From Paracyclopina nana (taxonomy: Eukaryota > Arthropoda > Copepoda > Cyclopoida > Cyclopettidae), in the NCBI GenBank assembly GCA_019096065.1, contig JAGUCH010000003.1:8990001-9054000 (forward strand): 64,000 nt of DNA, read 5' to 3'. The position numbers and the translations under genes are program-made. This document shows positions 6,070 through 58,126 of this stretch, one piece after another. How positions within the stretch are numbered: the stretch's first letter is position 1; every line of letters begins with the position of its first letter. The notes beneath the pieces are model-generated. The model was given only the letters and a program-made list of their open reading frames with translations. It was not told the DNA's origin and did no database searches.

Positions 6070-6299
6070 TGTTATGTTTTTATAACCTTCATCATGGCGC
6101 TAGCGCGTCGTGTTGTAGTAAAATGTAGTAGTATAGTACGAGACGCGCTGCCTAACCACACTTTCACCTAAGCAGGATGTGCAATGCTATTCACCTTGAC
6201 AGTACATTGTATATACAGTGCTTGGTTGAGAAATAAACTCAGTTGTGGCTTTGTACGAGAGAAGTCAGGTATCGCTATATAGACACCAAATTCACAACA
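6070..6299 (+). repeat. 3' LTR of gypsy copy 2 (230 bp)
   Basis: TGTTATG...ACA, near-identical to 4443-4680, with the purine tract just upstream. It abuts the coding sequence of the penton-like gene on the opposite strand at 6300. Confidence 0.9.
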
Positions 6300-6977
6300 A
6301 CTCCACCTCTTTGCTGCCCTTCACCAGCTCTCTTCTCAAGCCGTAACTGCTGGCCTGACCTGAGCTATTTTTGATCCCGCTTTCGACCACATTCTCCGTT
6401 CCGCTAACATCGTCGATGAAGCCAATCATGTGATGCATAAAATACTCTCTGCTGGCGTCAGAAAACGAGAAAGTATTCTCCAACCAGGTCTTGTAGTGGA
6501 AGCAAAACTCGTTCACAGACTGACACTTGCCACCATTCACCATTACCAAGCACAAACGGAAAAGGGCGGCCGGGAACATGGTAACGGTGGAAAAATCCTC
6601 AGAGTCAGGCAGGGGATTATCATCCTTGTCCACAACTTTCACCTTACCCCACAGAAGCGTGACTCGCATATCCATATATGAGTGCGAGGGGGTAGCGTAA
6701 ACTCAAAAGTAGTCGTATCATTCAATAGCATCAACATGGGGCGAAAGAATTGGGCTCTGCCCTCCTCGACAGCAGTTTGCAGGGGAGCCGGAGAAAACAG
6801 ATTCAGCCGAGAATCCATCATAGTCTCGTTGTTGTTGTTGTTGTTGGGAAGATGTTGCTTCACAAAGTTTCCATCATCAAAGCCGGGTGCCGCGGGTAGA
6901 ATTCCTTTGAGGATGCGCTGCTGCTGCTGCTTTGATTTCAGCGAACCATCGCTCGGGTTAGTAATGCCCGATGACAT
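6300..6977 (-). pseudogene. Polinton/Maverick penton-like minor capsid protein (F54H12.2-like), truncated
   Basis: This resembles the N-terminal half of the proteins annotated F54H12.2-like, which are the minor (penton-type, single jelly-roll) capsid proteins of Mavericks/Polintons and adintoviruses. Visible hallmarks: the N-terminal LFSPAPLQTAVEEG stretch, the following jelly-roll entry, then the block with LPDSEDF...FPAALFRLCLVMVNGG and the conserved YKTWLE segment. I chose ATG 6977-6975 because it lies ~60 nt below a TATA box. A one-base frameshift near 6660-6690 moves the second half into another frame, and the gypsy LTR at 6299 removes the C-terminal half. It is dead as drawn. The family match is from pattern memory and was not searched. 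Confidence 0.75.
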
Positions 6978-7001
6978 ATCAAAGATGGCAACCGAGTAAT
7001 G

Positions 7002-7060
7002 ACTGAAAGCGGAGGGAATGACGAGGCGCTTTATATACAGCATGCTCCCGAGATCATGCA
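7002..7060 (-). promoter_or_regulatory. Core promoter of the penton-like gene with shared Polinton upstream block
   Basis: On the minus strand, TATATAA at ~7037-7031 is followed about 30 nt later by an initiator-like TCAGT (7006-7002), with the chosen ATG at 6977. The 29 bases at 7060-7032 on this strand match 12023-12051 on the plus strand at 27 of 29 positions, including AGCATGCTGTATATA. This is a promoter block common to two Polinton genes. Confidence 0.6.
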
Positions 7061-12022: not shown

Positions 12023-12064
12023 TGCATGATCTAGGAAGCATGCTGTATATATGAGAGCGCGCTC
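12023..12064 (+). promoter_or_regulatory. Polinton promoter block 2 (TATA)
   Basis: The 29 bases at 12023-12051 match the reverse complement of 7032-7060 (27/29), ending in TATATA. The half-site GCATGC is palindromic. It faces right, toward the ORF at 12214, and so is divergent from the penton promoter. This implies both flanks of the 7.1-12.0 kb insert belong to one element. Confidence 0.6.
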
Positions 12065-12213
12065 ATCTCGCGTGTGCATGCGTGATTGCAAAATTTATCC
12101 ATGCCCATATTCGTAGGTGAGAGCTTTGCGATGAGGGCGGTTACTTAGGCATGAGTAGAGCGAGCCGGTCATGATAAAGGCGTCAGTGTTAGTTGAAAGC
12201 GCAATGCGGTAGG

Positions 12214-12400
12214 ATGACAGTGTTGATAGAGACGAAGAACATTAAGCTCAGCGTTAACGTTAACAGCCCCCCGAAGCGACCGCTGTCGCAAGAGCAGCAG
12301 CAGCAACAGCAGCTGTGAGGATGGCTTACCTCGGAAGATCTGGTAAATAGGGTAAGCAATTTGCTCGACGATAATGGAGAAAATGCGTATTCCATCAAGA
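12214..12400 (+). pseudogene. Truncated Polinton ORF of unknown function
   Basis: It starts at ATG 12214 downstream of the shared promoter block. The frame runs to the LTR boundary at 12400 (62 codons) with one in-frame TGA at about 12316, just after a run of glutamines (CAG/CAA repeat 12290-12313). After the stop it reads as a plausible helical segment (LTSEDLVNRVSNLLDDNG). Element A's LTR cuts it at 12401. It may be the N-terminus of the TFIIB-like gene on the far side or a different gene; I do not recognise it. Confidence 0.4.
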
Positions 12401-12625
12401 TGTTTGGGCTCCCGCCTTATCTATTGTATTGTGACACTCTTATATTGAGCTCGACCTATGATTCGATCCGTCATGCTCGTGTTTACGTTAGTACGATTCC
12501 GGATTTCACATGTGTTAGTCGAATAAATCGACTACTACATAGAAATCATCGGCGTGCTGGATTTTATTGCATATCTCGACTTTAATATCGTTTATTGCAT
12601 CGACGACTCTCGTTAGATTCATACA
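12401..12625 (+). repeat. 5' LTR of element A (225 bp)
   Basis: It begins TGTTTGGGCTCCCGCCTTAT and ends TACA directly before the primer-binding site. Its first 20 bp recur at 35126-35145 behind a purine tract, which identifies the truncated 3' LTR. Confidence 0.68.
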
Positions 12626-26432: not shown

Positions 26433-29400
26433 AAGGTGTATCTCCTGTATTGTCGATAGTAATACTTCTTCCACAGGCGGACTCCCGTTTCGGCCAAACC
26501 ATTAAAGTGTGGTCCATACGGAGGACTGAATGACCACTCCTTTACGCCCACATCTATGGAGTACTTTCTCAAATAATTCCAGTCGATCAGCTTCAGCTGC
26601 TGAAGAACGTCTTCATGACGCTCATCTCCCCAAATGACTTCCATGGTGCTTGGTAGGCCTGGCCCATTATCAGACCGTATCGACATTGGCACTCCTCTTA
26701 GTGCTACAGTGCGCTGAAGCGCTGATGCTACATGTTGCGTCTTCATGGATTCGGTCACCTCGGCATGGAGTGCGTGAGTGTCTCGGCACACAGTGATTAG
26801 CACATATTGCGTTAGATTGCTTCTTCCCAGTCTGACTGGGAAGGGTCCAGCGAAATCTATAGACACATGTTTGAAAGGGAGTAGATCTTTGTAAGTGACA
26901 GCATTTGGTGGTAGGGGGGCCATTTGAGGTACAGCTGGGGAGCGGACTTTCTTCTGACACGTGATGCAGTCAGCTATTATTTTCTTGGCTATGGAGTCAC
27001 AATGCAATGGCCAATATCTCGTCCTTGCTCGATTTAGCAGAGTTTTGTAGCCGATCTCATGATCGTTCTGGCGATGAATGGCCGTCAAGATTTCCTTGGT
27101 GAGCTCTGTGGGGGGCAGTATTAATCGCGAACGTCCCAAACCTGGAATAGCTAACTCTGATGTTCAGCCCATTGATCGCAATTCTCCCTGAGGTCCAATG
27201 GCGATTCGTAAGCCCGACAGTTTTGACTTACTCGGGAATCGGCCTTCTTTCTTTAAGTGAGCGAGCTCCTCTCCATAATATTGGAGTTGCTCACGCAGAA
27301 CTAGTCGTGCTTCGGCCACAGCCACCATGGGGGCATCAAATTTGGCTTCAGGCTTCCACCACGCGGCATACTCTTCGGCGTTGGGTATACGATTGTGCTT
27401 CGCTACAAATGCTCTTAGCTTCGAGGCATAAAGAATCATCCAGCCCAAGACTCGCACCAGCTTTCGATAATTGTCTTTGAAATCGCTTGTGTTTAAGGGC
27501 AATGGTTTTCTCAATTCCGCGGCCCAACGAGGGGCAACTTGGGCAACTGTGTGGGCAAGAGGGCCGTCAGCCACACCTGCCTCCATCACTGTGGTGGTGG
27601 CTAATACCACTTTAAAATCAGTGCTCGACGACTCCATAGCGATCGGGTCGGCGTCGAAACAATGCGGTTGAGGGTAGTTCTCTTCAGGCTCTAACAGCCA
27701 CGCCGGGCCATGCTTCCACAAGGAACTGTTTTCCAATTCTTGCACTGACATTCCCTTTGTAGGATAATCTGCTGGGTTATCCTTGGACCTGACGTGTCGC
27801 CAGAGGCAGCCTCTGGTCAATCGATGGATTTGACTGACTCGGTTCCCAATGAACGTCACCCAAGCTCTTCCAGACTTACCGAGCCAAGTGAGCACGCAGG
27901 ATGAATCAGTGAAGAACATAGTGGCCGAAATAGTCCAGCCCAGTCTACGAATCCTTTTTGACAGACGAGCTCCCAAAACTGCTCCCATGATCTCCAGATC
28001 CGGAATGGTTCGTCTTTCGGCTAGTGGGGCGAGCCTCTTTCTGGAAGCCAACAGATGGCATTCCACTTGTCCATCAGCCCTGGTCGATCGTAGATAAGCG
28101 ACACAGGCATATGCGATGTCTGAGGCGTCAGAGAATATGATCAGTTTTACGTCTTTGGGACGTGGAGGGATGATGCACCGTGGGAAAGTGATGTTCGGCA
28201 GGTCTGCGAGTTTTTTCAAATTGGCCTTCCAGGCTTTGACCACTTTCTTCATGTCTTCATTACTCGACTCTTCCAGTCGGGTGTCCCAGTCGATCTCCAT
28301 CACATACTTCATGGCGCAGACTTGTTGCATGGCAAATTGTGGCGCTAACGTAATAGGATCGAGTAGTCCCAAAGGATCGTAAAGTTTGGCAGCTGCTGAG
28401 GCAAAAGTCCTCATTGTAACTGGCTTATTCAAATATTGCTCCAAATCCGTAGCTGCAAACTTGAACACATCCTGCTTCATATCCAGAATCATCCCCAGGA
28501 TTTTTTCTCCCTCAGCAGCTGAGGGACCCTTCTTCAAACTGGAGTCTAGGTGCTCCAGTGTGATGTCTTGGTTGCTCATCCACTTCATGAGGGGCAGACA
28601 GGCTTCCTTCATGATCGCGTTGCACTCTTTGACTATTTGCTCAGCTTGCTCCTCAGAATCCGCTCCGGTAAGCAAATCGTCCATGTACGTGTCCTCCATG
28701 ATTGCCTTTGCTCCCAATGGGTGACTCGCTTCAAATTTCCTGGCATGCTCCCTCAATCCAAACAGGGCCATGCATGGAGAGGAGGCTGCTCCAAATACTA
28801 AGGAAATTGACTCATAGTATTCATTGTTCCAGATAAATCTGAAATATTTTCGATCTTCCTCCCTCAGCTGGAACTGCAGATACATCTTCTTAACGTCTGC
28901 GCCCACAATGATTGGCTTTTCTCTCAACTTCAGCAACACGTTGATCAAGTCGTTCAGCAGATTTGGTCCGGCCAACATTGCGTCATTGAGGCTTCTTCCT
29001 TGTGAAAACTTTCTGGAGCAATCATACACCACTCTCACTGGTGTGGAAGGCTTGTCCAGCCTTGACACCGTCAGTCCTGGTAAGTAGAAACCTGTGTTCA
29101 AATCGTCCTTGGTAGCGTCCAGCTTTCTTATGAACCCGCTCTGGAGACTGGACGCTTCTTGTCTGTTGCATCTCAGTGTGGGCTCTCCAGGCTTCCACAT
29201 GACTGGGACCACGTACCTTTTGTTGGGGAGTTGTACAATGCCCTTCTTTAAAATGTTGACGGCATACTCTTCTTCTTTTGGGGTTGGCTTCGAATCTTCG
29301 TTTTCTTCTTCCACGCCTATGCCAATAGCTTCCATGGCCCACAGATTTTCAATGACTTTTAGTGGGTCATCAGTGATTTCCATTGATTGTGTCATGTAGC

Positions 29401-31336
29401 ATATTGTGCCCCCCTCGTTTGGGCTGTCCTCTTCGGCTGCCAAGGTGGTAGCGCAAACCATTTTGTGATTGTCTGAATATAACATTACATGACCTAGTTT
29501 TGTTTCTAAGACATATTGTTCTCCAGGTGTTGATTTGGATTTGTCAGTTATCCAGTCGTAATTTTGGATTCCCAGGAGCATGTGAATGTCATTAGATGAT
29601 CGTTCAGGGAAATGGATGTTTTTGAGGGACGGGAATTTTTGCTTTAGTTCTGTCGTTGAAGGTAAGTTGAGGGGGTCAATTATCTTTGGTACTGAATAGA
29701 CAATAATTTCTTGACGGTCGGGGGACGTGGTTGATTGCAGTATGACCTTTGCTTTTTTGGAAGGAATCGACTGTTTACCGTTGAGGGATTGAATTAATTG
29801 TGGTGTGGACACGCCTGAGAGCTGCAGGGTGTCGTACACTTTTTGCGTAATGAAATTTGATTCGCAAGCAGTATCCATGAGCACGTTAATCTCCATTTGG
29901 GAGTTTGTCTCAGGGTTGATCAGTGTAGCGGGAGCAATGAAATACGATAACATTGTGGATTTATTTGTAATAAGAGCTACATGATTTGGGACTGTCCCAG
30001 TAGACTCTTCTTGGGCGGGTTTTTGTGCTTTTACGAGGTTCTTGAGGAAGTCGAGTAAATCTCTTGTTGTGACTTCGTCTTCTTTTTTGACTGTGGCAGC
30101 AGGATTTTCTTCTTGTTTTTGTGTGGCGACAGTGACTCCATCAGGGCAAATTAGGCAGTTGTGCTTCGCCGACTTGCAAATGCGGCAAACCCACTTCTTG
30201 TCGCACCTGGGCACCCGGTGTTGGCCTATAAGACATTTGAAACAGGCTCGATGTTGGATGGCAATGGTTTTTCTGTCATTGATAGACAATTCTTTGAATT
30301 TTTGACAGCGCAACAAAGTATGTTGCTCATTGCAGATGGGGCAAGCCTTAAACGGTTTGAGCTTGGAGTCAGCCGCAGCTGCTGCGGTGGCTAAGACTAG
30401 CATTGAATGCTCATCACTGTCGTATTCTGAGGACGCGTCGTCCTCGTGGGCAGGCTGTGTGACCAAAACTGTCTTTTTGTCCTTGGGTGCATCTTCATTG
30501 AACAGCTGACTCATCTGTGCTTCACACCACTGATCGAAAATGTCAAATGTGAAGCCCTTTGGGCTTAAAACCTGGCAGTAGTGGTTGAAAGCTTCCTTAG
30601 CTTTTTGAGTGAACTTCAATGAGTTGCGAGTTTGTCCGCGACTGCTGGCCAAATTTGTGCCGGGAATCTGTTGGAGTTGAACAGCAAGTTGTCCGACAGC
30701 AGCCTGAGCTTCTGATATGGAGTCGAGGTCGTTGTAGTCAATAGTTCCTAGAGATTTGAGGGAGTTGTATGCATAGTCGATTTGGCGTTCAACATTTCCA
30801 TACTTCGCTTCCAAACGTGCCAAGGCTATCTGGTAGTTCTCAGCAGTCCTGGGCAGGTAAATGTAAGATTTACTTGCTGGTCCATTTGCCGTTTTTTCAC
30901 ATAGGCGGCCGAACTTTTCTGCCACTGAGATGGTGGGGTTGTCATGGACTAAAAACTTGAAGTTGTTCTTGAAATTAAAATATTCCGAGGGGACCTTTCC
31001 AGTAAATGGCTCCATGTCCAAAGGTTTAAGCTTGATGTTTTGGTACATGTTGACGAGGGGGTTGAATGGCTGAGCCGCGTTCCAATTTGTTGCGGCCATG
31101 TTGTGGTCGTCAGTCCATTGACCAGTGCCATTTTCGGGGTTTGGATCGTCGGGGGGATCGCCCGAAGGGTCACCATAGTCTCCTGGGGGCTTTGGGGGTC
31201 GATAAACCCCCCCCCCCCCTAGTGGAGGCGGCCAGGCTCGATTATTGTCGTTGTCATGACGAGGGCGACCTCGACGTGAGCCTCCAGAGCCATGCGATGA
31301 GTTTGGCTCCTGGGGGGCCTCCTCCTCCCGTAGCAA
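26433..31336 (-). pseudogene. pol: BEL Gag-Pol: gag domain, zinc fingers, protease, RT, RNase H, integrase N-part
   Basis: Reading down from ~31336: a proline/glycine-rich stretch including a 14-C run (31207-31220); a DUF1759-type gag core (KLKPLDMEPFTGKVPSEYF); cysteine/histidine fingers (~30140-30340); a BEL-type retropepsin with DTACE near 29870-29885 in place of the usual DTG; RT with YMDDLL near 28675-28690; RNase H (FSDAS, TDSS); then an in-frame TGA at 27166-27164. Beyond it the same frame encodes the integrase zinc domain (H..H..CITCQ) and DDE core (D in VSIDFAGP, D in RSDNGPG, E in NGLAETG), interrupted by gypsy C. The C-terminal part continues at 18868-18143. The N-terminus is out of frame with the upstream ORF (change near 31310-31345). 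Confidence 0.93.
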
Positions 31337-35042: not shown

Positions 35043-35115
35043 CCCTGCCAATGCTAGATTCTGGTTGTGACTACACCAAGTTGCTGTGATGGTGTCGAGC
35101 TTTATCAAGATGTCC

Positions 35116-35145
35116 CAGGGGAGACTGTTTGGGCTCCCGCCTTAT
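35116..35145 (+). repeat. Element A polypurine tract and truncated 3' LTR
   Basis: CAGGGGAGAC (35116-35125) followed by 20 bases identical to the start of the 5' LTR (12401-12420). Identity ends at 35145, where the sequence leading to the TFIIB-like gene starts. The rest of the LTR (~205 bp) is missing. Confidence 0.65.
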
Positions 35146-35177
35146 TGCTCGCAGTTGCGAGTTGCTCGCATGAAACA

Positions 35178-36038
35178 ATGGAGGAGGAAAATGATGGTAG
35201 CGCCCCTCACTTACTTCAACTCAGCTTGGATTGGAGTTTTAACGCCAACATACCTCCAATTTACGCTCAAGATATGGTGGTGATACACTCGTTCCTGATC
35301 AAGCAAATACCCGAGCTGAGATATATTGAACGCGACTGTTTGTTGGCGTACTGTCTGCATTTGATTCTTTTGCGGGAAGGATGCACTAGGTCTTTTCGTG
35401 AAATTGCGGGCATTACAGGTATCTCGGAAAAAACTCTCAACCATTTGGAAAAGAAAGTTGCAAGAGCTGGTGTTGCGGGCACATTATCTCCTTTATTAAC
35501 CATGGTCGGATTAACACCTTTGGATCTTTTACCTCGCCTGAGTAGCCTCCTAGGCCTGCCTACCTCTCTACAGAAGCAATGTGTAACCGCGTTACAAGAG
35601 GTTGATTTGTTAAGCTCTAATCACCCTAGCACTTTGTGCTGCGCTCATCTCTATCACTTGATTCAGGAAAGCAACCTTAGGATACCAAATCACGGAGATA
35701 TTTGTAAAGCAGGAGGCATTAGTAAAGTTGCCGTTTTGCGCTACATTTGCCAACATCTCAAAAAAACTGAGGGAAGAAAGAAGGTAAAGATGAGGGAGCA
35801 CCTTTACAAAGAGCACTACCATCCCTCTACCATTGATACATTTGCAACCGGTATCCAATCCTTCCTTGATCCTCTAGTGAACAGCATCCCATTTGCCAAG
35901 GGACTCGCCGATGCTTTATTGGGAACAAACGAGGATGACGACAGAGCTCGCTCTCAAAGAAGGCAACAAAGACATGTTGATTTCACCGAGGGTGAGGTGA
36001 TTACTACATCATCAACACCCAGGGGAAGAACGCGATAA
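35178..36038 (+). CDS. TFIIB-like protein (two cyclin-type repeats) in Polinton context
   Basis: 286 residues from ATG 35178. Two repeats resemble the cyclin folds of TFIIB. Repeat 1 (residues ~45-100) has REGCTRSFREIAGITGISEK, aligning with the QEG.PRTFKEI....ISKKE segment of eukaryotic TFIIB. Repeat 2 (residues ~150-230) has LLPRLSSLLGLP...LQK followed by the EVDLL and ICKAGGISKVAVLRYI helices, matching the second TFIIB repeat. No N-terminal zinc ribbon is visible. A ~55-residue basic/acidic tail ends the protein. The frame is intact, and the stop is 25 nt from the integrase ATG on the same strand. It would act in transcription initiation by recognising promoter DNA/TBP and RNA polymerase. 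TFIIB homologues are known in giant viruses; I know of none in the standard Polinton gene set. Confidence 0.7.
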   Translation: MEEENDGSAPHLLQLSLDWSFNANIPPIYAQDMVVIHSFLIKQIPELRYIERDCLLAYCLHLILLREGCTRSFREIAGITGISEKTLNHLEKKVARAGVAGTLSPLLTMVGLTPLDLLPRLSSLLGLPTSLQKQCVTALQEVDLLSSNHPSTLCCAHLYHLIQESNLRIPNHGDICKAGGISKVAVLRYICQHLKKTEGRKKVKMREHLYKEHYHPSTIDTFATGIQSFLDPLVNSIPFAKGLADALLGTNEDDDRARSQRRQQRHVDFTEGEVITTSSTPRGRTR

Positions 36039-36046
36039 AAGCAAGT

Positions 36047-36060
36047 AGAGAGAGAGAGAG
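36047..36060. repeat. (AG)n microsatellite between TFIIB-like gene and integrase
   Basis: A short AG run in the 25-nt gap, which places a purine tract directly upstream of the integrase start codon. Confidence 0.8.
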
Positions 36061-36063
36061 ATA

Positions 36064-36723
36064 ATGAATTTAACTCCTCTGAAAGCTTGGCGTCATCTAC
36101 TGGCTAACTATAGATCTCCTGTCTCGTCCGTCGGGTTTGCATCACCGGGTGTTATCTACCAATTCTACGATGAAGCCCTTCCTTTAAAGAAAATAAAGAA
36201 GTTCCTCTCCACTGCAAATTTCTATACTTTGCATAGGAACTATAAAAAACCTAGGGTTCGCAACCCTATTTACTGCTATGCAAGCAGAGATCAACTGCAA
36301 TGTGATATTGGCATGATGAAAGATCAGGGAGCCCACAACTTGGGAAGGCGTTACCTATTAGTTGTGATTGATGCGTTCACCAAGCGGATTTTTGTGAGAG
36401 CTTTAAAGACAAAAAGTGCCGGTGAGGTGGTGGCAGCCTTTGAAGACATGTTTCACTCGGAAATCCGTAGAGCTCGGACCCTTGTCACCGATCTTGGCAA
36501 GGAGTTTATCAGCCGAATGTTTCTGGCAATGACTGACAGGCTCGGCATTGCAATGTACACCAGCCCAACTACGGGTAAAGCGCTCATTTGCGAGATGGTC
36601 ATGCTCACTCTCAAATCATACATTGAGCTGCGTAGTGAACAGCCGCCGCTGGCACATCAATTGTACACCTTTCAAGACAAACCCTGCGAACCGCGACTCC
36701 TCTTCGTGGGCGAGGAGGAGTAG
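36064..36723 (+). CDS. Polinton/Maverick retroviral-type integrase, C-terminally truncated
   Basis: 219 residues from ATG 36064. The N-terminal helical domain is followed by NFYTLHRNYKKPRVRNPI, the block typical of Polinton integrases, then an RNase-H-fold core with catalytic D in QCDIGMM, D in VTDLGKEF and E in LICEMVML. The DDE triad is therefore present. Polinton integrases normally continue for ~100 more residues (C-terminal barrel or chromodomain); here the recognisable sequence ends near 36630 and the frame stops at 36721-36723, close to where element D-type sequence begins. It catalyses strand transfer of Polinton ends with 6-bp duplications. It is probably inactive because of the truncation. 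Confidence 0.88.
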   Translation: MNLTPLKAWRHLLANYRSPVSSVGFASPGVIYQFYDEALPLKKIKKFLSTANFYTLHRNYKKPRVRNPIYCYASRDQLQCDIGMMKDQGAHNLGRRYLLVVIDAFTKRIFVRALKTKSAGEVVAAFEDMFHSEIRRARTLVTDLGKEFISRMFLAMTDRLGIAMYTSPTTGKALICEMVMLTLKSYIELRSEQPPLAHQLYTFQDKPCEPRLLFVGEEE

Positions 36724-41055: not shown

Positions 41056-41250
41056 TGTAGGGGTTCGAACACTCTTGAGGCCACGCGCTACGCCATATTA
41101 ACTTGTAGACCTTACTGCGTATTAGGGAATATATTGTCGAGCTGTTCGCTCGAGCATGGTCGTGTATTTACTGCCCATATACAATCATAGTAGTAATCGC
41201 CCCGGGAGGGAGGCGAGAGCGCAGGCACGCAGGCTCGGGATCCTGCTACA
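41056..41250 (-). repeat. Candidate LTR of element D (195 bp)
   Basis: On the minus strand it runs TGTAGCAGG... to ...CCCTACA and is followed two bases later by TTGGCGCGG, a plausible primer-binding site start, in the right position before gag. No second copy exists in the window, so the boundary is inferred. A second local repeat (GATGTTCGTGGCATGCTTCC at ~40807 and ~40890) lies in the leader. Confidence 0.4.
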
Positions 41251-41396
41251 GAACCCACACCTAGCGGATAAAGAAGACACACCCACCTTGATACTTCTGC
41301 ATGAGTCTCAGATAACATCCAGTGCTCATGCTGAGCAATCTGGAACATAGTCAGAAAGTTTGCATCCCTCATGTAACATACAGCCAGTTTGAGCTG

Positions 41397-42809
41397 ATGA
41401 CAGCGATGGAGAACCGAAACCTTAACACAACACCCTTGACTATGTCCTACCACGCTCCCAGTGACATTCTCTTTCTCAAGCTTCCCCTGCAGTATGCCAA
41501 GCATGGAGTGCTTTACATGCACACCAACTTTTCAGACTACTTCTTTTCAAAGGAACTCATTTCAACCATGTCACTCAAGAAGACAGAGATTGATGGAAGC
41601 ATGTACCATGTCCTACCCTGCTCAAGATGGAAAGTCAATCCTTCCAACCCTAAAGCCATTTTGCTACCCTCCAAGGAGAGCATTGGAGACTTTATGTCAA
41701 CCCTCTATCCTCAGATTATCAATGTGCATTGCTCTCAACTCTCACCGGGTTGGTCAACTTCCAACACTTTGGCCTCCTTTTACCCCCCACGTGAACATTG
41801 CATTTATGATTACAAGTCAATCAGCGGGTCAGGGAGGCCCACGCGTGTGCAGCATCAATTCAAGCAACCTATATTTCTCCCTACGGCAATACAGTCTCTT
41901 AATGAACTAACCATCAACCTAAAGGATGACAAAGGTGAGGTTATTGCAACTACAGAAGGAGGAGAGACCATTTTAAAGTTGCTGTTTAAAGAGGTTCGCA
42001 TGTCCTCCTCTTACCATGAAGAGGCTCAGCTACAATTCACCTCTAGAGGACTGGAGGAAAGCAAGCATGATTTCACGGTCGCATTACCTCACCCCCTACC
42101 TTATCACTCCTCTGGATGGAAGGTTGCTCTTACCTCATTGCTGCTTCTGTGCTTATTCTCCAACAACTTGACCCTTGAAGAGCGAACTTTAGTGGTTGAA
42201 TCTGTCATACCCGGGAAGCAAAATATTGAAAATCATAAAATTGTGCTACCAACACATTCTCATATTGTGGAAGAGTTGAGCTACATTTTTGAACACTCTA
42301 CCAATGGGAACCTTTTAGCCTCTGTTGATCAACAAAAAAAGTCTCTCAAGTTTTACAATCCAGCTAAGCTCACCAAGATCACTTTGAGCCGTAAGTTGTT
42401 TGACTTTCTTGGAGGGAACTTGACTGACATTCCTTCCATTGTGGAAAAGAAGACTCTCAGAGACTCTCTCTCCTTTCTGTTCCAGCTCAATCAACGCTTC
42501 TCCTTGATGAGACCACCCAAGTTTGAAGAACATGCTCCATTTGTCATCTTTTTGGAGTGTGATGTCATCACTCCTACTTTGGTTGGGTCTAAGACGAAGC
42601 CTGTGCTACGGTGTGTTCCAATTAAGTCTCAGCTCTTGGGGACTAGCCACATGTTTGAGTTTGAACACATTTACTTTCACAACTTGTCGGTTAGTAAACC
42701 GAGCAGGCTAAGATTCAAGCTACTAGATAGCTCATACAACCCAATTGCCTTCTCTCCTTCCTCGAATGATGATGTTATTATTAACCTATTGTTCAAGCCG
42801 CGTGGCTAA
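41397..42809 (+). CDS. Polinton virion-type conserved protein (PX/PY-like)
   Basis: 470 residues from ATG 41397, frame intact. The N-terminal ~230 residues are not recognised. From residue ~235 it follows the pattern of a conserved Polinton/adintovirus protein: a DFTVALPHPLPYHSSGWKVAL opening, the usual LP...l.l.g.WeVAL form. The C-terminal part has VFLECDVI..TLVGSK..PVLRCVPI (about residues 380-410), and the end FEHIYFHNL....LRFKLLDSSYNPIAF....VIINLLFKP corresponds to the terminal 'phY.pv...I.i...d..G..i.F..g.v.l.lhFr' signature. Probably a structural or entry-associated virion component; exact role unknown. It converges on polymerase B with a 20-bp gap. Ties to the family are from memory. 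Confidence 0.6.
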   Translation: MTAMENRNLNTTPLTMSYHAPSDILFLKLPLQYAKHGVLYMHTNFSDYFFSKELISTMSLKKTEIDGSMYHVLPCSRWKVNPSNPKAILLPSKESIGDFMSTLYPQIINVHCSQLSPGWSTSNTLASFYPPREHCIYDYKSISGSGRPTRVQHQFKQPIFLPTAIQSLNELTINLKDDKGEVIATTEGGETILKLLFKEVRMSSSYHEEAQLQFTSRGLEESKHDFTVALPHPLPYHSSGWKVALTSLLLLCLFSNNLTLEERTLVVESVIPGKQNIENHKIVLPTHSHIVEELSYIFEHSTNGNLLASVDQQKKSLKFYNPAKLTKITLSRKLFDFLGGNLTDIPSIVEKKTLRDSLSFLFQLNQRFSLMRPPKFEEHAPFVIFLECDVITPTLVGSKTKPVLRCVPIKSQLLGTSHMFEFEHIYFHNLSVSKPSRLRFKLLDSSYNPIAFSPSSNDDVIINLLFKPRG

Positions 42810-42816
42810 TGTTTTT

Positions 42817-42834
42817 TTATTGCACTGTTTTATT
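42817..42834 (-). terminator. Polyadenylation signals at the convergent gene ends
   Basis: On the minus strand AATAAA overlaps the polymerase stop codon (~42834-42829) and a second AATAAA lies near 42822. The stop of the plus-strand gene is at 42807-42809, so the two transcripts overlap tail to tail. Confidence 0.5.
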
Positions 42835-45800
42835 CTTTACAATCGGGACATTCTCCCTTATTCTCATCAATTTCAATGCTACCAAATGGTACCGTGTGCA
42901 ATCCACACGGGAAAATATATCTTTTAGAATCAAAGTTGAAGAGAGCTGACTTGACAACTTGCTGCGTAAAGATTCTGTATCCATCTGTTTTGATTGCACC
43001 GAAGGCTGCATAAATTTTCTTGTCTCTCATCAAAGCATCCTTGTAATGCTGAAACCTTATCTTACGTTGAGTCAAGTGTTTGGAGATCCCTGTCAAGACT
43101 TTTTCCTCTTGCTTTTGCACCGATGTACTCGCCCCTGCTTTGTTGTTGTAATCAACTTGCTGAGTTTGCAAAGCGTAGCATTTGGCTCTGAGGGCTATGG
43201 CTTCTACAATCTCACTGGTCCCTTTCATCTCATCCTTCCATAATCCCAACTGATTTTTCCTAGATCCATCATACTTTGGTTGATCGATTGGAAAGTTTGA
43301 GAAGTCAAGGCTTTGTGACATTTTCTCATACAGGTTGATAGTTTTTTCTTCAATGGACTGCTTTACTAAGCATACCATAGAATCAATGTCGGAACAAATT
43401 ATCTACAAAAAAGTGTTGTTAAAGAACCCGGGCTTAATAATAATATATATTTTACGTACTTGCAATGGAGGGAACACTGGTTGCACCTTGTAGTAGTACT
43501 CATGGCTCATAAAGTACCTACTCCACTCTAGAATTGAATAAGCTGCGGGGATGGGCTTGTCCAAGGCAGCTATAGCCTCTTTTAAGAAGACTATCGCGAG
43601 CTTGCTTGTAATTATGCGACACCCCTCATAGTTGGTCATGCTAGCATACTTCTTGAATTTCTTCTTGCTCCTTGGGAATTTCACCAACAGTCAATTCCTT
43701 GTGAGAAAAAATTATTGTTGGAAGGAAGGAACTTTTTTAGAAAGGCAAGCTACCATAAAGGGAGTTGGAGAGGAGCTTGAAAATGTTCATATCAAACTCA
43801 AGCTTGGATGCTTTCCTGAACTGAGTGCATCTCTCAATGTAGGGCCTTGCATACGCTTGCTGAACAAAAACACCCTGTGGATGGCTGTCAGCTTTAAGCC
43901 CAATTTCTTGTACATTTGAAAGTTTGCTAAAGAGATGACAACATGACTCTTATCATAAAAAGTGGAAGTTACTTTCTTCTCCTTGAACTTTGTTTTTTTT
44001 GTTGAATCTTTTAACCTCTCTCGAGAATAGGGTGATAAGTCTGCCTCAGTAATTGTTCTTTTCTCGACAACAAAAGGCCAATGTCTATGCTTTTTATGGA
44101 GTTCACTAGGATACTCGAATGACACTTCCATAATGTATCCATATCCACCATCCTTGAAAGGGTCGACAGCATAAAAAATATACTTCTTCAATTTTGTCTG
44201 AGCTCAAGAATTGAAAATCTTTCAAAGGTAGTGGTTGAGACATGCATTGTCCATATAAGTTGTTCAAATCAATGTAAAACATGGAAGATTTCTCAGACTG
44301 TTCACCGTGTCTCGTAGATGCAAATGAATGACCACCTATTATGTTTTTTTCCAAAAACTCAAACATTTCCCGGTCCGTGATCAGTTCAATTTCAGTGCTT
44401 GTGGTCAGCAATAATGCATCCAAAGCAATAGCAGGAGTCAAAAGGTAGTGGAAGCAGTCCAATCCAATCATTTTACGGTACCTAAAATAGGAGGAAAGTG
44501 GTGGTATATGAAATAACTGTTTGCACAAGATGCAACTTGCCTGAACATGCATTCAGCCAACAGTAATGTGTCAATCATGCAATAAATTGACATGTAGTCA
44601 GCCATGTTTCTGCAATTAAACTCAGTGAAGACATCCTTGGCAAATGCATACTCCTCCTGAGTAATGCTGCATTCACCCAGTATGTCTGAGTAAAAATCTT
44701 CTATTGGAGGAAACTTTTTTATGTTGCGCAACCTTTCCAAGCTAGTCGATAATGAAAAAGGGAAGAACCCTTTGCTAATCATCATGTTAAACCTTTTTTC
44801 GCTGAATGCTCTCTTCTTTGCGGATTTCTGTTTGGTTGGAACTAAAGGGTTGCACAATCTTGACTTTCTCAAGATGGAATAATCATGCTCAGAGTTTCTC
44901 AATGTCTCAGCTAGTTTCCCTAACCCACATTGTAGATGTGGAAGGGAGTCTTGGATGACAAATTTTCCAATCTTGACTGTCCTCATCTTTTCAGTATTCT
45001 TTGGTAATGCTGAAATATCTCTATCTCTATCAATCATGCTCAAGTCTTGGAGAAGGAACATGATGTCATAACTCATTGCTGAAAGAAAAGTAGTATGTGT
45101 TCTGAACTCTGAATTGAAAATATTGAATCTTACAGTTGTGAGCGTACACCAGAATTTTATTGAGAGCTTTCTCCAGATTAAGGTTGCATTTTGAATGAGC
45201 ACTTCCCACATATCATCCTGAAACTGTTTAAAGGAAAAAAACCATTATCAAGAAGACTACTATGAAAAAAAATTGAATTACTGTGACAATGATGCCTGAC
45301 AACATGCTGGTACGGAGCTTGCAGCACCATTTTTGCACATTTCAAGTCATACTCTGGATGATAGGACTTTGAACAAATGCAGCATTGTGTAGAATTTTCA
45401 AAGTCTCTTTTATCGTCCTCTGTCATTCTCATTGGTACAGCTGATGATACGTAGTCTTCAAACCAATCTTCTTTTTCAATCCATGATTCCACCATTTCCT
45501 GCGCGGCCTTTCCACACTGACTCAATGCACTCTCTTCCAAAAGAATGTCACCTAAATAATTTACCACAACATAACTATATGCAATGGCTTTATGCTCGCT
45601 TAAGTTTTTAGTTGCAATGTTTGTACCACAACAACATCGACCTCCAATCAGGGTGCCCTCTTTCAAGCAAACGTAGCATGTACCATCCATTCTCAAATGC
45701 ATCTTGCGACATAGATTGACTTACAGACTCCTCCAAAGGAACTAGAGCACACTCCAGGTAAAAAAAGATGGCAATTTTTACTGGGAACTTTTTGTTGTGG

Positions 45801-48060
45801 TTGGTAAACACCATTTTGGGTGGGTGACTTCCAGTCTCATCCTCCACTAGTTAAGGCATATTTACAAGCTGAGAACCATACAAAGTGCACCCATTTTTGC
45901 TGTGTTCATCCAGTAATCATTGTTTGTAAAATGGTGTGAGGCATTTGGGGCAGAAATATGGTATACAATGCTTGTAATTTGTAATTCCAGATGATTCCTC
46001 CACTTTAGTTACTTCTATCAGAAAGCAATCTTGATGAGGTAGTACCTGTCCTCCACATTCAGAAGGTGTATAATTTTCCCCTTTTTTCCTGCTTGCTCTC
46101 CAATGCCATTTACAAAAGGAAAAATCATATTATCATAGTAGCTCAACACATTCACGCTCAAGTTGAGAGCTGCTGCATTCAGCTCAATAAATTGAGTGTT
46201 GTATGGTTCGATTTCCATTCTATGCTTTTTTGCATTTGCTCTTAAAAAGTCTAATCTTGGGAGATCATCCAGTAGGGGCAAAACAGATGGATTGTTGCTA
46301 TCTTCAGTAATAAATAAATGGTCAATAAATGGTCTCATTTTTGGTCCACAATCAAAAAAGTTTTGTTGGGGCCAAATGAAATCAGGAAAATAGGCTGAGA
46401 TTTCCTTTGTGTCATTTTCACATTCTAAGTCATTCCAAAAGTATCCAGCTAACACACAAAAGACGAATGAATCATGATCTGGTACTTCCATAGGTATATC
46501 TGTTCAAATCCGTGCCCGCAAAAATCCGCTCAGTAAAAATCCGCTCAGCAAAAATCCGTCAATTGAAAATTCGTTTTGTCATTGCGACTTGACCTAGTCA
46601 AAAATGTTGTACTTGCAAACCAAGCAGGTTGATTTGGGTACAAAATCATTGACTTGAACTTATGCTTAGAACGCCATCCAGGATTTCATCTTCTTACAAA
46701 TATTGCATATCTTTAAATCCAGAACCATGAAACTAATGTTCTTTGCACAAGAATGTACAAAAAGTGGCCGAAAATCTTAGGTAAATAAATAATAATAAAT
46801 AAAATAATGTTGGGTAGCTTTTTAATCAATCACTCATATCACCTACGCATTACACTGGCCAAAATATTGAAGAGCAATGCAGAAAAAACAAACATAACAA
46901 TCATTTTTGTTGTGCAGCCAGATGGCATTTTGGCACCAACAAAATATCAGTTAAAATATTTCTTCATTTTTGGCATAGATTTTGACGGAGAAAAGATTTA
47001 CAGGCCGGATATTTTCGGAGCTGATTTTTACGGAACGGATTTTTGCGGATACGGATTTGAACAGTACATTCCTTCCATATCAACCAAATTTCTGCTTCGT
47101 GGAATCTTTTAATCTGATTTTCGACCTTCCATTTCTTCTTCCCAGAATCCTGAAAGAAATCAAAATTATTCAATTTGCATATTAACATATTATAAGTTGT
47201 TTTTTTTTCATATAAATTTAACAAGTGGTGCAGTTGCAAATATATCAAATCCCACACTCTGGATTGAGTGCATACTCCATCCGGATCCGGACAGATCAGT
47301 CAATTCATCAGACCTCATTTCAGCTTCATCAACAGCAAGGTAAAAGAGGGCTTGTAAGTCTTTGATTCTTGATGCAATGAGATGAAAGTCTCTAGCTCGA
47401 TGATACATGAACATTGTATCAATGACATCGCCTTGCTCATCTTGCATTTTGTAAATGACGGTAAAAACTACACCAACCTTGATGGAGCCTTTCTCAAGAA
47501 CGATGCATTTTACCAAATCATGTGCAGCATCAATCATGACCTTATGATTTCGCACAAACATGAAGGACTTTCTCTCAGCAATGTCCTCTGTGAAAAGCCA
47601 TAAATAGTTCAGAGCAGATCCATTGATGGCTTGCTTTCTTAAGATGAAATGTGACTTCAGTTTTAGCCCTCAGTTCAGCCACATGAACGGATTGGATGTG
47701 TTGCCTTTAAGTATCCATAGTTGAGAAATAAATCTTTTCAGTGCAAACAAAGCATTGGAACATACTAGAGTGGGATTCATGTTCCCTTTGAAAGTGAATC
47801 ATCACGGTGTTCTTCCTTGTGTAAAAGGCACTGCATGAAGGACACTTATGGTACAAATGTGATTGTCCTGTGCGTGCAATCCTGCTCTCAGTATGCATAG
47901 ATGCATAATGAGAGTTATCATCATTTTTAGATGATGAAACATGCTTGCACAAAGCACAAATTATGTATATTGCCTTTTTCTTCAATTTTTCTTCTTCCAT
48001 TGCCTGTTTGTGCTCATTGTTAAAGTGAAAACGCATTTCTTGAATGTTTTGAAATGTCAT
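42830..48060 (-). pseudogene. Polinton protein-primed DNA polymerase B, multi-exon, degraded
   Basis: Read on the minus strand: C2H2-like fingers (48060-47707); N-terminal domain ending in GSGW (~47620-47210); further N-domain (46491-46018); exonuclease block with FYLEC at ~45770 where family members have DxE (Asp missing), HCH...CNL region, ExoII-type N..SYDIMF (~45070); YGQ.MSQPLP region (~44230); a GYIMEV.FEYP block (~44110); NSLYG motif B (~43760); motif C SDIDS (~43390); conserved KDE..G C-terminal block to the stop at 42832-42830. Several GT-AG introns (45289-~45232, 45133-~45080, 43459-~43401, ~47205-47152) and one GC-AG intron (~44543-44482) have good sites. Lesions: in-frame TGA near 45223, frameshifts near 44170 and 43850, and a 565-bp element inserted at 46500. 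Confidence 0.85.
46500..47064. mobile_element. 565-bp MITE inside the polymerase B gene
   Basis: Inverted repeats ~60 bp long, imperfect: CTGTTCAAATCCGTGCCCGC at the left and CTGTTCAAATCCGTATCCGC at the right (reverse complement), each continuing with repeats of CAAAAATCCG. The flanks read ...TATAT and TACAT..., giving at best a TA duplication. Non-coding. It separates two exonic pieces of the polymerase N-terminal domain. Confidence 0.8.
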
Positions 48061-48177
48061 TTTACATTTTTTACCATTGACTTTGTGATAACAAACAATT
48101 TTTTATATTATAATGATCACACCTTTTTTGTTGGGATTGACTATAGCACTAATGCTTGAAGTTCTTACACCAACTTC

Positions 48178-48187
48178 TTTTATATAC
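48178..48187 (-). promoter_or_regulatory. TATA box of the polymerase B gene
   Basis: On the minus strand TATATAAAAG lies ~120 bp upstream of the first ATG (48060). It is a TATA-type promoter, like the other two Polinton promoters, but lacks the shared 29-bp block. Confidence 0.5.
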
Positions 48188-48349
48188 GCTCACTGGGAAA
48201 TGATTCAAGGATAGTAGATTGACATGTGTGCATGATTAATTTGACAAATTTAGGTTAAGAATGCAACCTTGATTGTAGCTTTAGCTTTTCATTTTTCATC
48301 CTGTCATGTTTTAAATATTCAATTTACTTGACATTAGAGTTTGAAATCG

Positions 48350-48640
48350 GAAAGAGACAAAAAAAATTTACACAACCTTTCAGTTTTGAAATCGGAACCT
48401 TTTAGTTTGTGAGAGTTTGGAGATCTTGTCGAGGCTTTCTAGTGACTATAATGCGCGCAAAAAATGAAACACTTTTGTGAGACCTTGAGGTCTTGTTACG
48501 GTTTGCTAGCGTTTCAGGTGAGCTTGAGATCGTATATTTCGTGAGCTTCAGGTGAGCTTGAGTTTACCTTTTTAAGACGTTTCAGGTAAACTTGTAGTTT
48601 TTTCCACAACATATGTGTTGGTTTCCTTGATTCCATTGAT
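48350..48640. repeat. Degraded copies of the TGTTGTGG MITE family
   Basis: Several versions of TTTCAGGTGAGCTTGAG (48516, 48550 and nearby) and one MITE arm at ~48580-48612 ending CCACAACA. No complete element is seen. No gene is found from 48190 to 49210. Confidence 0.6.
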
Positions 48641-48936
48641 GACGTTCTTTATACTTCTAGGTTAAACTCATCTCAATTCGGGCAAGAAAAAGAAGTAAAC
48701 ATTGAAATCAAGTAAATTTTTTCTTTTTGTAATCTTTCTCAGCTCCATAAAAAGCGAAAAACTACCTGGCCGAGTCCATAAGACGATTCACATTTACTTA
48801 CTATTTGTTGCTGGCTCAAAATCTCAAATAACTTCTGGTTCAGATGCTAGACATAAAAAAACTCAATAGCGACGACATACAACACTATTGGGAGAAGGAA
48901 TACTCATACACTCTTTCGCACATGAAGGTTACCATG

Positions 48937-49045
48937 TGTTGTGGAAAAAACTACAAGTTCGCCTGAAACGTTAGGGAGTTTCAGGCGGACTAGTAGTTCG
49001 TCTTTTTTGGACGTTTCAGGCGAACTTGTAGTTTTTTCCACAACA
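48937..49045. mobile_element. 109-bp MITE with 35-bp inverted repeats and 6-bp TSD
   Basis: The left arm begins TGTTGTGGAAAAAACTACAA and the right arm is its complement ending CCACAACA. The duplication ACCATG is at 48931-48936 and 49046-49051. It can fold completely into a hairpin. Related pieces occur at ~48580, 51536 and 58059. Confidence 0.92.
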
Positions 49046-49210: not shown

Positions 49211-52200
49211 TTAAGACTTTATCTTGAGCTTTTTTGACGCCATGACCAATGGAGGCGGTGGTGGGGTTGGAATTGGTGTTATTGGTGGTGATTCGGCACT
49301 GGTAAAATCTATTACATCATTCAAAACCTTTTTTTCAACTATATCTAAATTGTAAGTTGGTCTTCCATCTTTTTTCTCAGCCAAAGTGTTGTAAATACTT
49401 GAACTACAAAGGATATCTCTATTTTCATTTTTTTGCGAAATATTTGAAGGCAAGCGATTTGATGGCGTAGAAATTGATCTTTGAAATAAAAGTAATTCAT
49501 TTTCTTGAGCGTTTTTTTCATCACAATCGACAAGAATTGAATTATTCAAGGACAAATCTGGATCATAAGTTGTAAATGAACCAAATTTTGAAACAAAAAC
49601 ATCATCAGCTTCTGTAAAAAACAAAAAAAAACATAAAAAAAAATTTCAGGCTTTTTTAAGTTTTAGTCACCTAAATTTGACCCAGTCCAATCATTTTTCT
49701 TGATGCCTTTCATAAAAATTTCTGCAAAACATCGTTCAGTCTTAAATTCAAAAATGTTCTCTCTGTTATATGTGGTTAGGTCGAAGCTACTCAAATTGCG
49801 GCGAGAGTCTTTTTCATCTTTTTCAGCATAGTATTTTCTTGGAAGACTTTTTGTTTTCAAATCCTAGGAACATATGGAACATATTAACATAAAGTAAATA
49901 CCGTTTTTTAAATTAATTGCTTACATTTAAATTATATGGAGAGTTTAATTGAGAATTTCTTCCAAAATTGTCTTGTGAAAGTTTAACGCATGGATAAAAT
50001 CCTTAAAATATAAAATTAGATACCAGTTATAAGCTTAAAGACACAAATAAAACCTTTTGTTCCATTTTTAGTAGCAAATTTTTGTCCATTGGAGTCAATT
50101 TTCTTGTTAAAACAGCATAGATAAATTACCATAGCAAAAAAAATTACTCCCATGAGTCCCAAAGCTATTGAAACTACAGCAATTTGAGTTTCCACATGAG
50201 TATTTGGCGATGCCGCTCTATCCATAGCTGCAAAGAAACAATCTAATTTTGATACTTCTTTGTACAAAAATGAACGTGGGAAAAATATTGATTCATAAAT
50301 AATCTTTCATAAGATGACTCAATTAGTTCTGCTTTTGGCGTATAAAGCCAATTCTAAAATGCTATCCTTTTTTCAGTGAAATTTCTTTTAAGCTTTCATC
50401 TTTTTTTTGCATTAAAATACTGTTATTGTTCACAATGAAAAAAAATAAGAAACAAAAATTTTGAAAAATCTTACGTCGTGTTTTTATAATAACCTCGTCC
50501 GAAAAATTGGAATAGCCGTCCCTGTTCCATGATCTTATTTTCAAAGCATATCTTGTTTGTGGATTTAGTCCATATACTGTCGTTTCATTACCATCAATGC
50601 GACGTATATTTTTTAATTTAAGCACTCTTTGGCCTGATTTTTCATCATAAACTTGAATTTCAAATGATTGATTGTAACCTCCATTAAATCCGGGGATCCA
50701 AGCTAAGCTTACTGAATTGTCATCAACAGCAGTTATTTCTATACTCTTGGGTTTCTCTGGTGGCCCAGGTTTAACAATCTTAAAAAAGATAATAAAAAGA
50801 TGTTTTTTGATAATAATTCATAGCTTACTTGCATATCATAGGAATCAACACCATAGATATTTGATGCACTACATCTAAAAATTGAAAAATAATGCTCAGA
50901 ACGAACATTGTCAATTACAAAAACTGAATCAAAGGCCGACGATATTGATGTTTTTTCAGGTGGTTCAATTGTTTCACCTCGATCTCTGTTATGTAAGCCC
51001 ACTTTAACCATTTCATTGTCAGTTTCTCTTTTGATAAACCAGGTAAAAGTAACGTCTGGATAACCAAAAGCTCTGCAAGTTATAAAAGCAGGAGATCCAC
51101 GAGCAAAAGCCATTTTTGACCGTTCTAAATCACGTTTAATGTACGGAGGATCTACAAAAAAGTGAAATGTGAAAAAAATAATTAATTTTAACACTCCTTA
51201 CGATTGACAAAAAGATAAGTAACAGCTGAAGTTGAATAGTTCAATGCAAAATTTTGGGTAGAACATATGAATTTTCCCATGTCATATCTTTTAACATCAT
51301 TAATTTGAAAAATTGAAATCATTTTTTCCTTGATCAATATTTTTTGGCTTCGTTGTTGCAAACTTTGATTTGTTTTTAAGTCAATGCTGTATCCGAAAAA
51401 ATTCCATTGCACCGTTTCCTCATTAAATGGATTTGCTTCAATTTCACATTTGAACTCAGCAATTTCTCCTTCGTTGACTGTTAAATTTGTAGTTAGGGAC
51501 CGAATCCTAAATAAAATTTAAGCAAAATATTATTTTACGTTTTAGGTGAACTTGTAGTTTTGTCCACAACAATTAGGACATACCTTGGAGGAAACAAAAC
51601 ATCAACAAAGAATGTGTGAGAATTATTGAAGTTGCTATGTCCATTCCAAGCAAAAATTGTGTAGTTTCCTCTGTTTTTTCTGTGAGCATTGGTCAGAGTA
51701 AAGAAGCATCCTTCAGTGTAAATTCTGTTTGAAAATGTTTCGTTGGGGAAAATCCATTTATATTTTATTTGGGGAGGATTTCCAATTGCATCAATAGTAA
51801 TATTAAGAGCTTGACCTTCATTTACATAATAAATGGCCGGATTTGTTTCCAAAAATCTTGGTTTGACTGTAAAAATTGAGAAGTGTTCGAGAACATTAAA
51901 TTTTTTTTTAACTTTTGAAAACTATTGTCTTTTAGAAGCCAAGCGCCGAATCAACTTACAGAGCACTTCAATTTTGATAGAAATGGTAAGTTCTTCCTTC
52001 GTCTCTTCAAAAAATATTGGGTTTTGGGCGAAACATTGGTAATATTTCCCATTATTATTTGGAGAGGCACGAAATTCCAAAATACTTGTAATTTGCTCAC
52101 CACCAGCATATTTTCCTTGAACTACTTCGGTTCTAGTGGATTCAATTATTTGGCCATTTTTATTCCATCGAAAAATTGGGCGAGGATTCGATTCATCTAC

Positions 52201-58058: not shown

Positions 58059-58126
58059 TGTTGTGGACGATTTGTAGTTCGTCTTTTTGAGACGTTTCAG
58101 GCGAACTTGTAGTTCTTTTCACATCA
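58059..58126. mobile_element. 68-bp MITE nested in the large inverted-repeat element
   Basis: TGTTGTGG...CACATCA with the TSD GACAGC at 58053-58058 and 58127-58132. The opposite arm of the host repeat preserves the empty site with a single GACAGC, direct proof of insertion. A shortened member of the 48937-49045 family. Confidence 0.9.

Follow-up and report, generated by a model that had tools for sequence, protein, structure and literature searches.

A TFIIB-like gene with a TBP-like partner next to the integrase of Polinton elements

Pieces of a Polinton in the window

The window, by which we mean the whole 64,000-nt stretch analysed (C3:8990001-9054000, in a searched genome of 92 Mb and 10 contigs), contains an open frame at 35067-36038 on the plus strand, whose ATG at 35178 gives a protein of 286 residues in the ORF listing. 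Residues 77-221 of the extended ORF match the core of human TFIIB in a search of PDB structures (E=6.5e-6). A sequence-only reading of this DNA had recognized two TFIIB-type cyclin repeats here, and this assignment is upheld by the structure match together with the profile of intact relatives described below; taken by itself, the Pfam TFIIB model scores 15.2 bits, under its cut-off of 23.6. The neighboring ORF at 36064-36723, also on the plus strand and separated by a gap of 25 nt, encodes an rve integrase (PF00665, 46 bits, E=6.7e-12; cut-off 32.6). A single-sequence structure model of the window protein was poor (pLDDT 48.9) and was given no weight.

Comparison with the best related element, on contig C9, reveals that the window holds one family-A Polinton in pieces, with the gaps filled by other repeats or other sequence:

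6299..7037, minus strand: remnant of the major-capsid gene (N-terminal part) with its upstream stretch; 89.8% identical to C9:809902-810657, where the capsid ORF is on the minus strand
12046..12404, plus strand: remnant of the capsid/TBP intergenic stretch and the 5′ part of the TBP-like gene; 83.8% identical to C9:810654-811008
35157..36038, plus strand: N-truncated TFIIB-like gene, cyclin-repeat region without zinc ribbon; 91.4% identical to C9:811665-812542 (PDB TFIIB, E=6.5e-6)
36025..36626, plus strand: Polinton integrase, N-terminal ~188 residues only (ORF start 36064); 93-96% identical to C9:812685-813280 (rve, E=6.7e-12)
41250..46490, no single strand: continuation of the same element, with a capsid-like gene (41322-42809, plus), a 182-aa gene (42830-43378, minus) and remnants of the DNA polymerase PolB (minus); 92.6% identical to C9:813982-819254, in which PolB is found, and 93.9% to its inverted twin
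47072..48611, no strand assigned: zinc-finger gene and right element end; 94.6% identical to C9:822362-820813
48577..48611, minus strand: right terminal inverted repeat, with 0 mismatches to the repeat pattern (C3:9038577-9038611)

Element homology of the window TFIIB-like gene begins only at 35157, and the N-terminal zinc ribbon present in the C9 relative is absent. Because that relative starts further upstream with the zinc ribbon missing here, the methionine at 35178 is an internal one: the 286-residue ORF described by the sequence-only reading exists, but the protein is not intact as had been claimed. The 25-nt gap and the rve integrase had likewise been read correctly. However, ~142 nt of the C9 copy at the TFIIB/integrase junction (C9:812542 to 812685) are absent from the window, so the spacing is secondary (it is 9 nt in the C9 copy), and the integrase is element sequence only as far as 36626, where it is cut. 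The tail of the integrase ORF (36627-36723, residues 187-219, ~33 codons) belongs to another repeat found at dozens of genomic places. The window TFIIB-like gene is a decayed, N-truncated Polinton remnant with an internal start.

By eye, the TBP remnant at 12046-12404 contains an in-frame stop, and the C-terminal half of this gene is gone. The sequence-only reading missed the adjacent TBP gene because the window keeps only this remnant. The 22.7-kb gap that parts it from TFIIB contains a 1390-aa ORF on the minus strand (27164-31336), which by eye has the look of a BEL/Pao-type retroelement polyprotein. Further family-A terminal-repeat copies lie past the right end of the element in both orientations (48933-49045, 51537-51571 and 58092-58126).

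TBP, TFIIB and integrase genes in six Polinton families

A fuller family-A copy spans 22,572 bp at C9:798235-820806. Its terminal inverted repeats (TIRs) are identical at 105 of 107 compared positions, and a perfect target duplication, TACCCG, is present on both outer sides; a duplication of 6 bp is of the Polinton type, and this result on element ends covers family A. Just upstream of TFIIB lies a TBP open frame (C9:810800-811513). The TFIIB-like ORF itself has 399 codons (C9:811509-812708) and encodes a zinc ribbon of pattern C-x-H-x13-C-x2-C followed by the cyclin repeats (PDB TFIIB, E=2.3e-8; Pfam Zn_Ribbon_TF 22.1 bits, below the cut-off of 29). It stops 9 nt before the start of the integrase (C9:812718; PF00665, 43.6 bits, cut-off 32.6). 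The same element carries a family-B DNA polymerase (PolB; PF03175, 47.2 bits), split over two ORFs, and PF03175 has 15 matches genome-wide. The TFIIB-like gene belongs to the Polinton, and in family A the TIRs and target duplication of the element enclose it. Its membership had been proposed from spacing in the window; with other copies carrying the gene, the support is now stronger than the window alone could give. A second family-A Polinton (from C9:820813, locus L071) lies tail to tail with the first, and the spacer between them is exactly 6 bp, TACCCG, the same as at the left end.

A search for integrases returned 94 matches. Of these, 22 were judged Polinton-type and fall into six families (A-F); the 72 set aside matched through the foreign tail only or were distant retroelement-like integrases. 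TFIIB-like sequence is found just 5′ of the integrase at 16 of the 22 loci (A 4, B 2, C 3, D 1, E 3, F 3), and TBP too at 14, the exceptions among the 16 being the window and C6 copies of family A. The order TBP, TFIIB, integrase is seen in 6/6 divergent Polinton integrase families, all from one genome. Because further loci, and five more Polinton families, also have the pair, the association of TFIIB with the integrase is not a matter of chance; the prospect that other Polinton copies would lack the gene did not materialize, since it is present at other loci in six families. Stretches spanning the three genes on different contigs are 99.9% (C1 vs C7) and 99.8% (C1 vs C3) identical. In every family the TFIIB frame adjoins or overlaps that of TBP (from a 10-nt gap to a 97-nt overlap), and in the five families read on that side (A-D and F) a divergent capsid gene stands in front of TBP. 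A small ORF lies between TFIIB and the integrase in family B (L042:2172-2753) and family C (L052:1817-2206); judged by eye, something comparable may have been fused onto the family-A TFIIB as its long C-terminal tail.

Other Polinton genes accompany these three. Family B has an adenovirus-type (C5) protease (Peptidase_C5, 24.4 bits, cut-off 21.3), and family D a packaging-ATPase-like ORF with two sub-threshold matches (AAA_22, 25.0 bits, cut-off 27; Pox_A32, 17.0 bits, cut-off 22.8). The family-F capsid has a sub-threshold match to a double-jelly-roll-like domain (15.1 bits, cut-off 27), and those of families A and D have no Pfam match; the capsid ORF is conserved across three aligned families, with 54% mean column identity.

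Four of the 22 integrase loci, all family-E derivatives, retain only the last part of TFIIB. The remaining two are second arms of family-E derivative pairs, at which the TBP/TFIIB scan matches none. Because derivatives without TBP and most of TFIIB stand at three loci, spread does not depend on having the pair in cis. In the derivative at C7:4631868, an inhibitor-of-apoptosis gene (L014:368-907; BIR 73.4 bits, plus RING) stands where the parent element has TBP and the greater part of TFIIB; the corresponding stretches of L064 (C9) and L065 (C3) are 99.4-99.8% alike, from which we take this derivative to have multiplied recently. Its integrases occur as inverted pairs about 16.9 kb apart at the three loci (C7, C9, C3). 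The C1 and C7 copies of family E are still 99.5% identical at C1:14741000, and the element ends lie beyond.

A TFIIB profile built from five families matches human TFIIB residues 96-287 in PDB with E=1e-24. Scores of single families against the Pfam TFIIB repeats (PF00382, cut-off 23.6) pass for D (39.8 bits, two stretches) and fall short for E (23.5), B (21.7), A (14.3) and F (13.4). No family passes the Pfam zinc-ribbon cut-off of 29 (A 22.1, B 21.7 bits); by eye, zinc ligands of pattern C-x-[HC]-x12-13-C-x2-C are present in 5/5 families with an unbroken gene, the family-C TFIIB being frame-broken in both copies read. The family-F protein (L036:4805-5983) has two consecutive N-terminal zinc-ribbon motifs.

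The ORF immediately upstream of the element TFIIB is TBP-like, exceeding the Pfam TBP cut-off (PF00352, 22.9) in five of the six families (B 42.0, C 40.4, A 34.3, E 29.2, D 26.3 bits). Family F, at 15.2 bits, is sub-threshold and has no match in the genome-wide Pfam TBP scan; its three TBP genes were found by position and by a profile built here, which includes one of them, so that the assignment in this family leans on synteny and an in-sample profile. The alignment profile of all six families matches TBPs in PDB with E=1e-16, and the element TBP is collinear with a host TBP exon over a stretch that starts where repeat 1 ends and takes in repeat 2. The intercalating positions of repeat 2 are F or Y in 6/6 families, as aligned to host TBP; those of repeat 1 were judged by motif only. 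Of 16 matches in the genome-wide scan, five are fragments, either of the host TBP or of a further TBP that is host-like, and each of the remaining 11 is located 5′ of a Polinton integrase, on the same strand and within about 1.5 kb.

A proposed role in promoter recognition

From these sequences we infer that the element probably supplies its own TBP-TFIIB pair, with which host RNA polymerase II would be drawn to the element's promoters. Under this proposal, the first transcripts would be started by the host, after which the element would make its own TBP and TFIIB. The TBP would bind and bend element promoters, and the TFIIB would dock on it and recruit host RNA polymerase II via its zinc ribbon, the part that contacts polymerase in known TFIIBs. 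Element genes could thus be read independently of host TFIID/TFIIB control, by analogy with giant viruses that have their own TBP and TFIIB and with archaea that use TBP and TFB. Host RNA polymerase II is assumed because no RNA polymerase gene was found among the element ORFs given to Pfam, a scan whose range excludes C9:798351-802999.

The interface between the two proteins offers a further view of this proposal. Human TBP E284 and TFIIB R169 contact each other and define specificity, as in altered-specificity TBP/TFIIB pairs. The residue corresponding to E284 is N or Q in 6/6 families, with YEPELF of the host TBP appearing as YNPQTF, FQPEVY, LNAELF, LNSELF or QNRESY, and the residue corresponding to R169 (the arginine of ACRQEG in the host) is L, Q or K in the 5/5 families tested; the host keeps E and R. 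These changes fit a pair partly insulated from that of the host. More tentatively, the pair may be self-contained and co-diverged from the host's at E284/R169, giving an element of ~20 kb orthogonal initiation for which it would borrow only the host polymerase.

A shared TATA-containing promoter block had been put forward as the natural target of the factor, and this was not borne out. Of 32 element genes, 4 have TATAWAW in the 130 nt upstream (shuffle mean 1.2; 4 reached in 11 of 500 shuffles), one of these motifs being TATATAAAG before the family-A capsid gene, and for the shorter TATAWA, 54 of 500 shuffles reach the observed count. The case for TATA promoters as the target of the pair is weak, since TATA-like motifs precede so few element genes.

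The position of TFIIB just upstream of the integrase in 6/6 families could instead reflect integration targeting, with the TBP-TFIIB pair helping the integrase choose sites on bent, TBP-bound DNA, much as the Ty3 intasome works with host TFIIIB/TBP; PMC8632968 describes contact between that intasome and TBP. Several observations make such a role unlikely. The zinc-ribbon ligands of TFIIB are kept, which a tether would not need, and family-E derivatives that have an integrase, no TBP and little TFIIB still spread. Furthermore, a capsid-like gene follows the integrase too, so neighborhood alone says little, and TFIIB does not directly adjoin the integrase in families B and C, where a small ORF intervenes. 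We consider it just as doubtful that the element proteins shut off the host by acting as decoys on host TATA boxes or RNA polymerase II, thereby lowering host transcription. The divergent interface residues could give unproductive complexes with host partners, but a decoy needs only one of the two proteins, and conservation of both members, of the zinc ligands and of both TBP repeats is a better fit to a working pair.

Selection, origin and related systems

Mean column identity in our alignments is 53% for the integrase, 39% for TBP and 35-37% for TFIIB. Nei-Gojobori dN/dS values, which are biased by overlapping frames, are 0.181 for TFIIB, 0.175 for TBP and 0.071 for the integrase between family-F copies 1 and 2, and 0.045 for TBP and 0.075 for the integrase between families B and C, where synonymous sites are near saturation; the comparison of D with E is saturated. 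Values for the window and C9 copies, subject to the same bias, are 0.215 (TFIIB) and 0.110 (integrase). These ratios indicate purifying selection in the copies compared. From the low TFIIB value and the open frame, one might suppose that the copy in the window functions as an independent gene, live or domesticated. We regard this as very improbable: the zinc ribbon is missing, as are the partner TBP and some of the integrase, other sequence stands at each break, and a low dN/dS can date from the element's active period.

In the host genome, the TFIIB gene is split over separate frames (C2:15061714-15062694), with a partial second copy at C2:6582640 (locus L050), and a Brf1-like gene lies at C2:5519488-5520312. 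A protein database queried with the TFIIB alignment gave two matches among 5608 candidates, P0002, which looks like an ordinary cellular TFIIB, and P0003, another TFIIB. The C9 TFIIB query gave none at E<=0.01 among 8000 candidates scored, and 0 of 2313 candidates were confirmed for the TBP alignment. Searches of viral contigs with TFIIB, the integrase, PolB and alignments of the integrase, TBP and capsid confirmed none. In a tree of 10 TFIIB-type proteins, six element rows from five families fall on one side of a branch with support 96/98, and host TFIIB, Brf1, cellular TFIIB and P0003 fall on the other. This points to one origin for the element TFIIBs, provisionally, as long branches affect the tree. 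The idea that the gene is a host TFIIB/Brf paralogue lying by chance beside a Polinton fragment, which its clear TFIIB homology and the partial second host copy might favor, is refuted by the position of the family-A gene between TIRs and target duplications, its recurrence with the integrase at many loci, the separation in the tree, and the mere 26% identity of the window ORF to host TFIIB, which like the Brf1-like gene resides on C2, so that no syntenic host paralogue is the best match.

The element TFIIB profile matches human TFIIB (1e-24) ahead of archaeal TFB (1e-10), yeast TFIIB (2e-5) and yeast Brf1 (3e-4), taking the latter structure entries to be from archaea and yeast as we assume. 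Because the profile prefers human TFIIB over archaeal TFB, an origin from eukaryotic TFIIB is suggested. The element TBP profile has no human-versus-archaeal preference comparable to this.

With PolB, an rve integrase, an adenovirus-type protease, TIRs and a 6-bp target duplication, as well as packaging-ATPase-like and capsid-like ORFs (sub-threshold in Pfam here), these elements resemble Polintons/Mavericks and adintoviruses. They differ in carrying TBP-like and TFIIB-like genes, which are absent from the four-gene core of PolB, integrase, C5 protease and ATPase stated in PMC3671162. In having TBP and TFIIB genes of their own, these elements recall the giant viruses (Nucleocytoviricota): according to PMC11464507, megavirus chilensis expresses both, and giant viruses encode RNA polymerase subunits too. 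In contrast, no such subunits are found among the element ORFs scanned, and the element measures 22.6 kb. Mavirus-type virophages (EMALEs) are also Polinton-related integrating elements, and it is a co-infecting giant virus whose transcription factors are thought to recognize their promoters (PMC8547959), whereas the element described here carries its own factors. In an animal-type host, an element could not rely on finding giant-virus factors.

The two-factor recognition of promoters also resembles archaeal TBP and TFB. The element TBP profile matches best 1mp9 (E=1e-16), which we take to be an archaeal TBP, but the element TFIIB profile is, as noted above, far nearer to human TFIIB than to archaeal TFB. 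Like host TFIIB and Brf1, the element protein has a zinc ribbon and two cyclin repeats; unlike the split host TFIIB gene, to which the window ORF is so distantly related, the element genes are single open frames that overlap or abut TBP.

Kapitonov and Jurka (2006) reportedly use letter codes for additional Polinton proteins of sporadic occurrence, and a TFIIB-like protein may therefore already have been mentioned for Polintons. Among titles and the beginnings of abstracts, a range that excludes this founding 2006 paper, we found no report of a Polinton TBP or TFIIB. The accessible main text of PMC11071308, PMC11071296, PMC10120064, PMC3671162, PMC4642659, PMC4028283, PMC12220804, PMC12721341 and PMC8547959 contains no TFIIB or TBP, and sporadic TATA-binding proteins are described, in the part of PMC10675990 available, for algal elements of putative mirusvirus origin and not for Polinton-like ones. 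What seems new is the addition of a TBP-TFIIB pair to a Polinton; the kind of element is itself known.

A position close to the root of many eukaryotic DNA viruses is often assigned to Polintons, and possession of one's own initiation factors has been seen as a giant-virus trait. The retention of this pair in six families means that promoter-recognition genes are also present in ~20-kb elements without an evident polymerase. Here a possibly orthogonal TBP-TFIIB pair in a eukaryotic nucleus occurs naturally and can be put to the test, and the two genes together provide a marker pair for finding more such elements.
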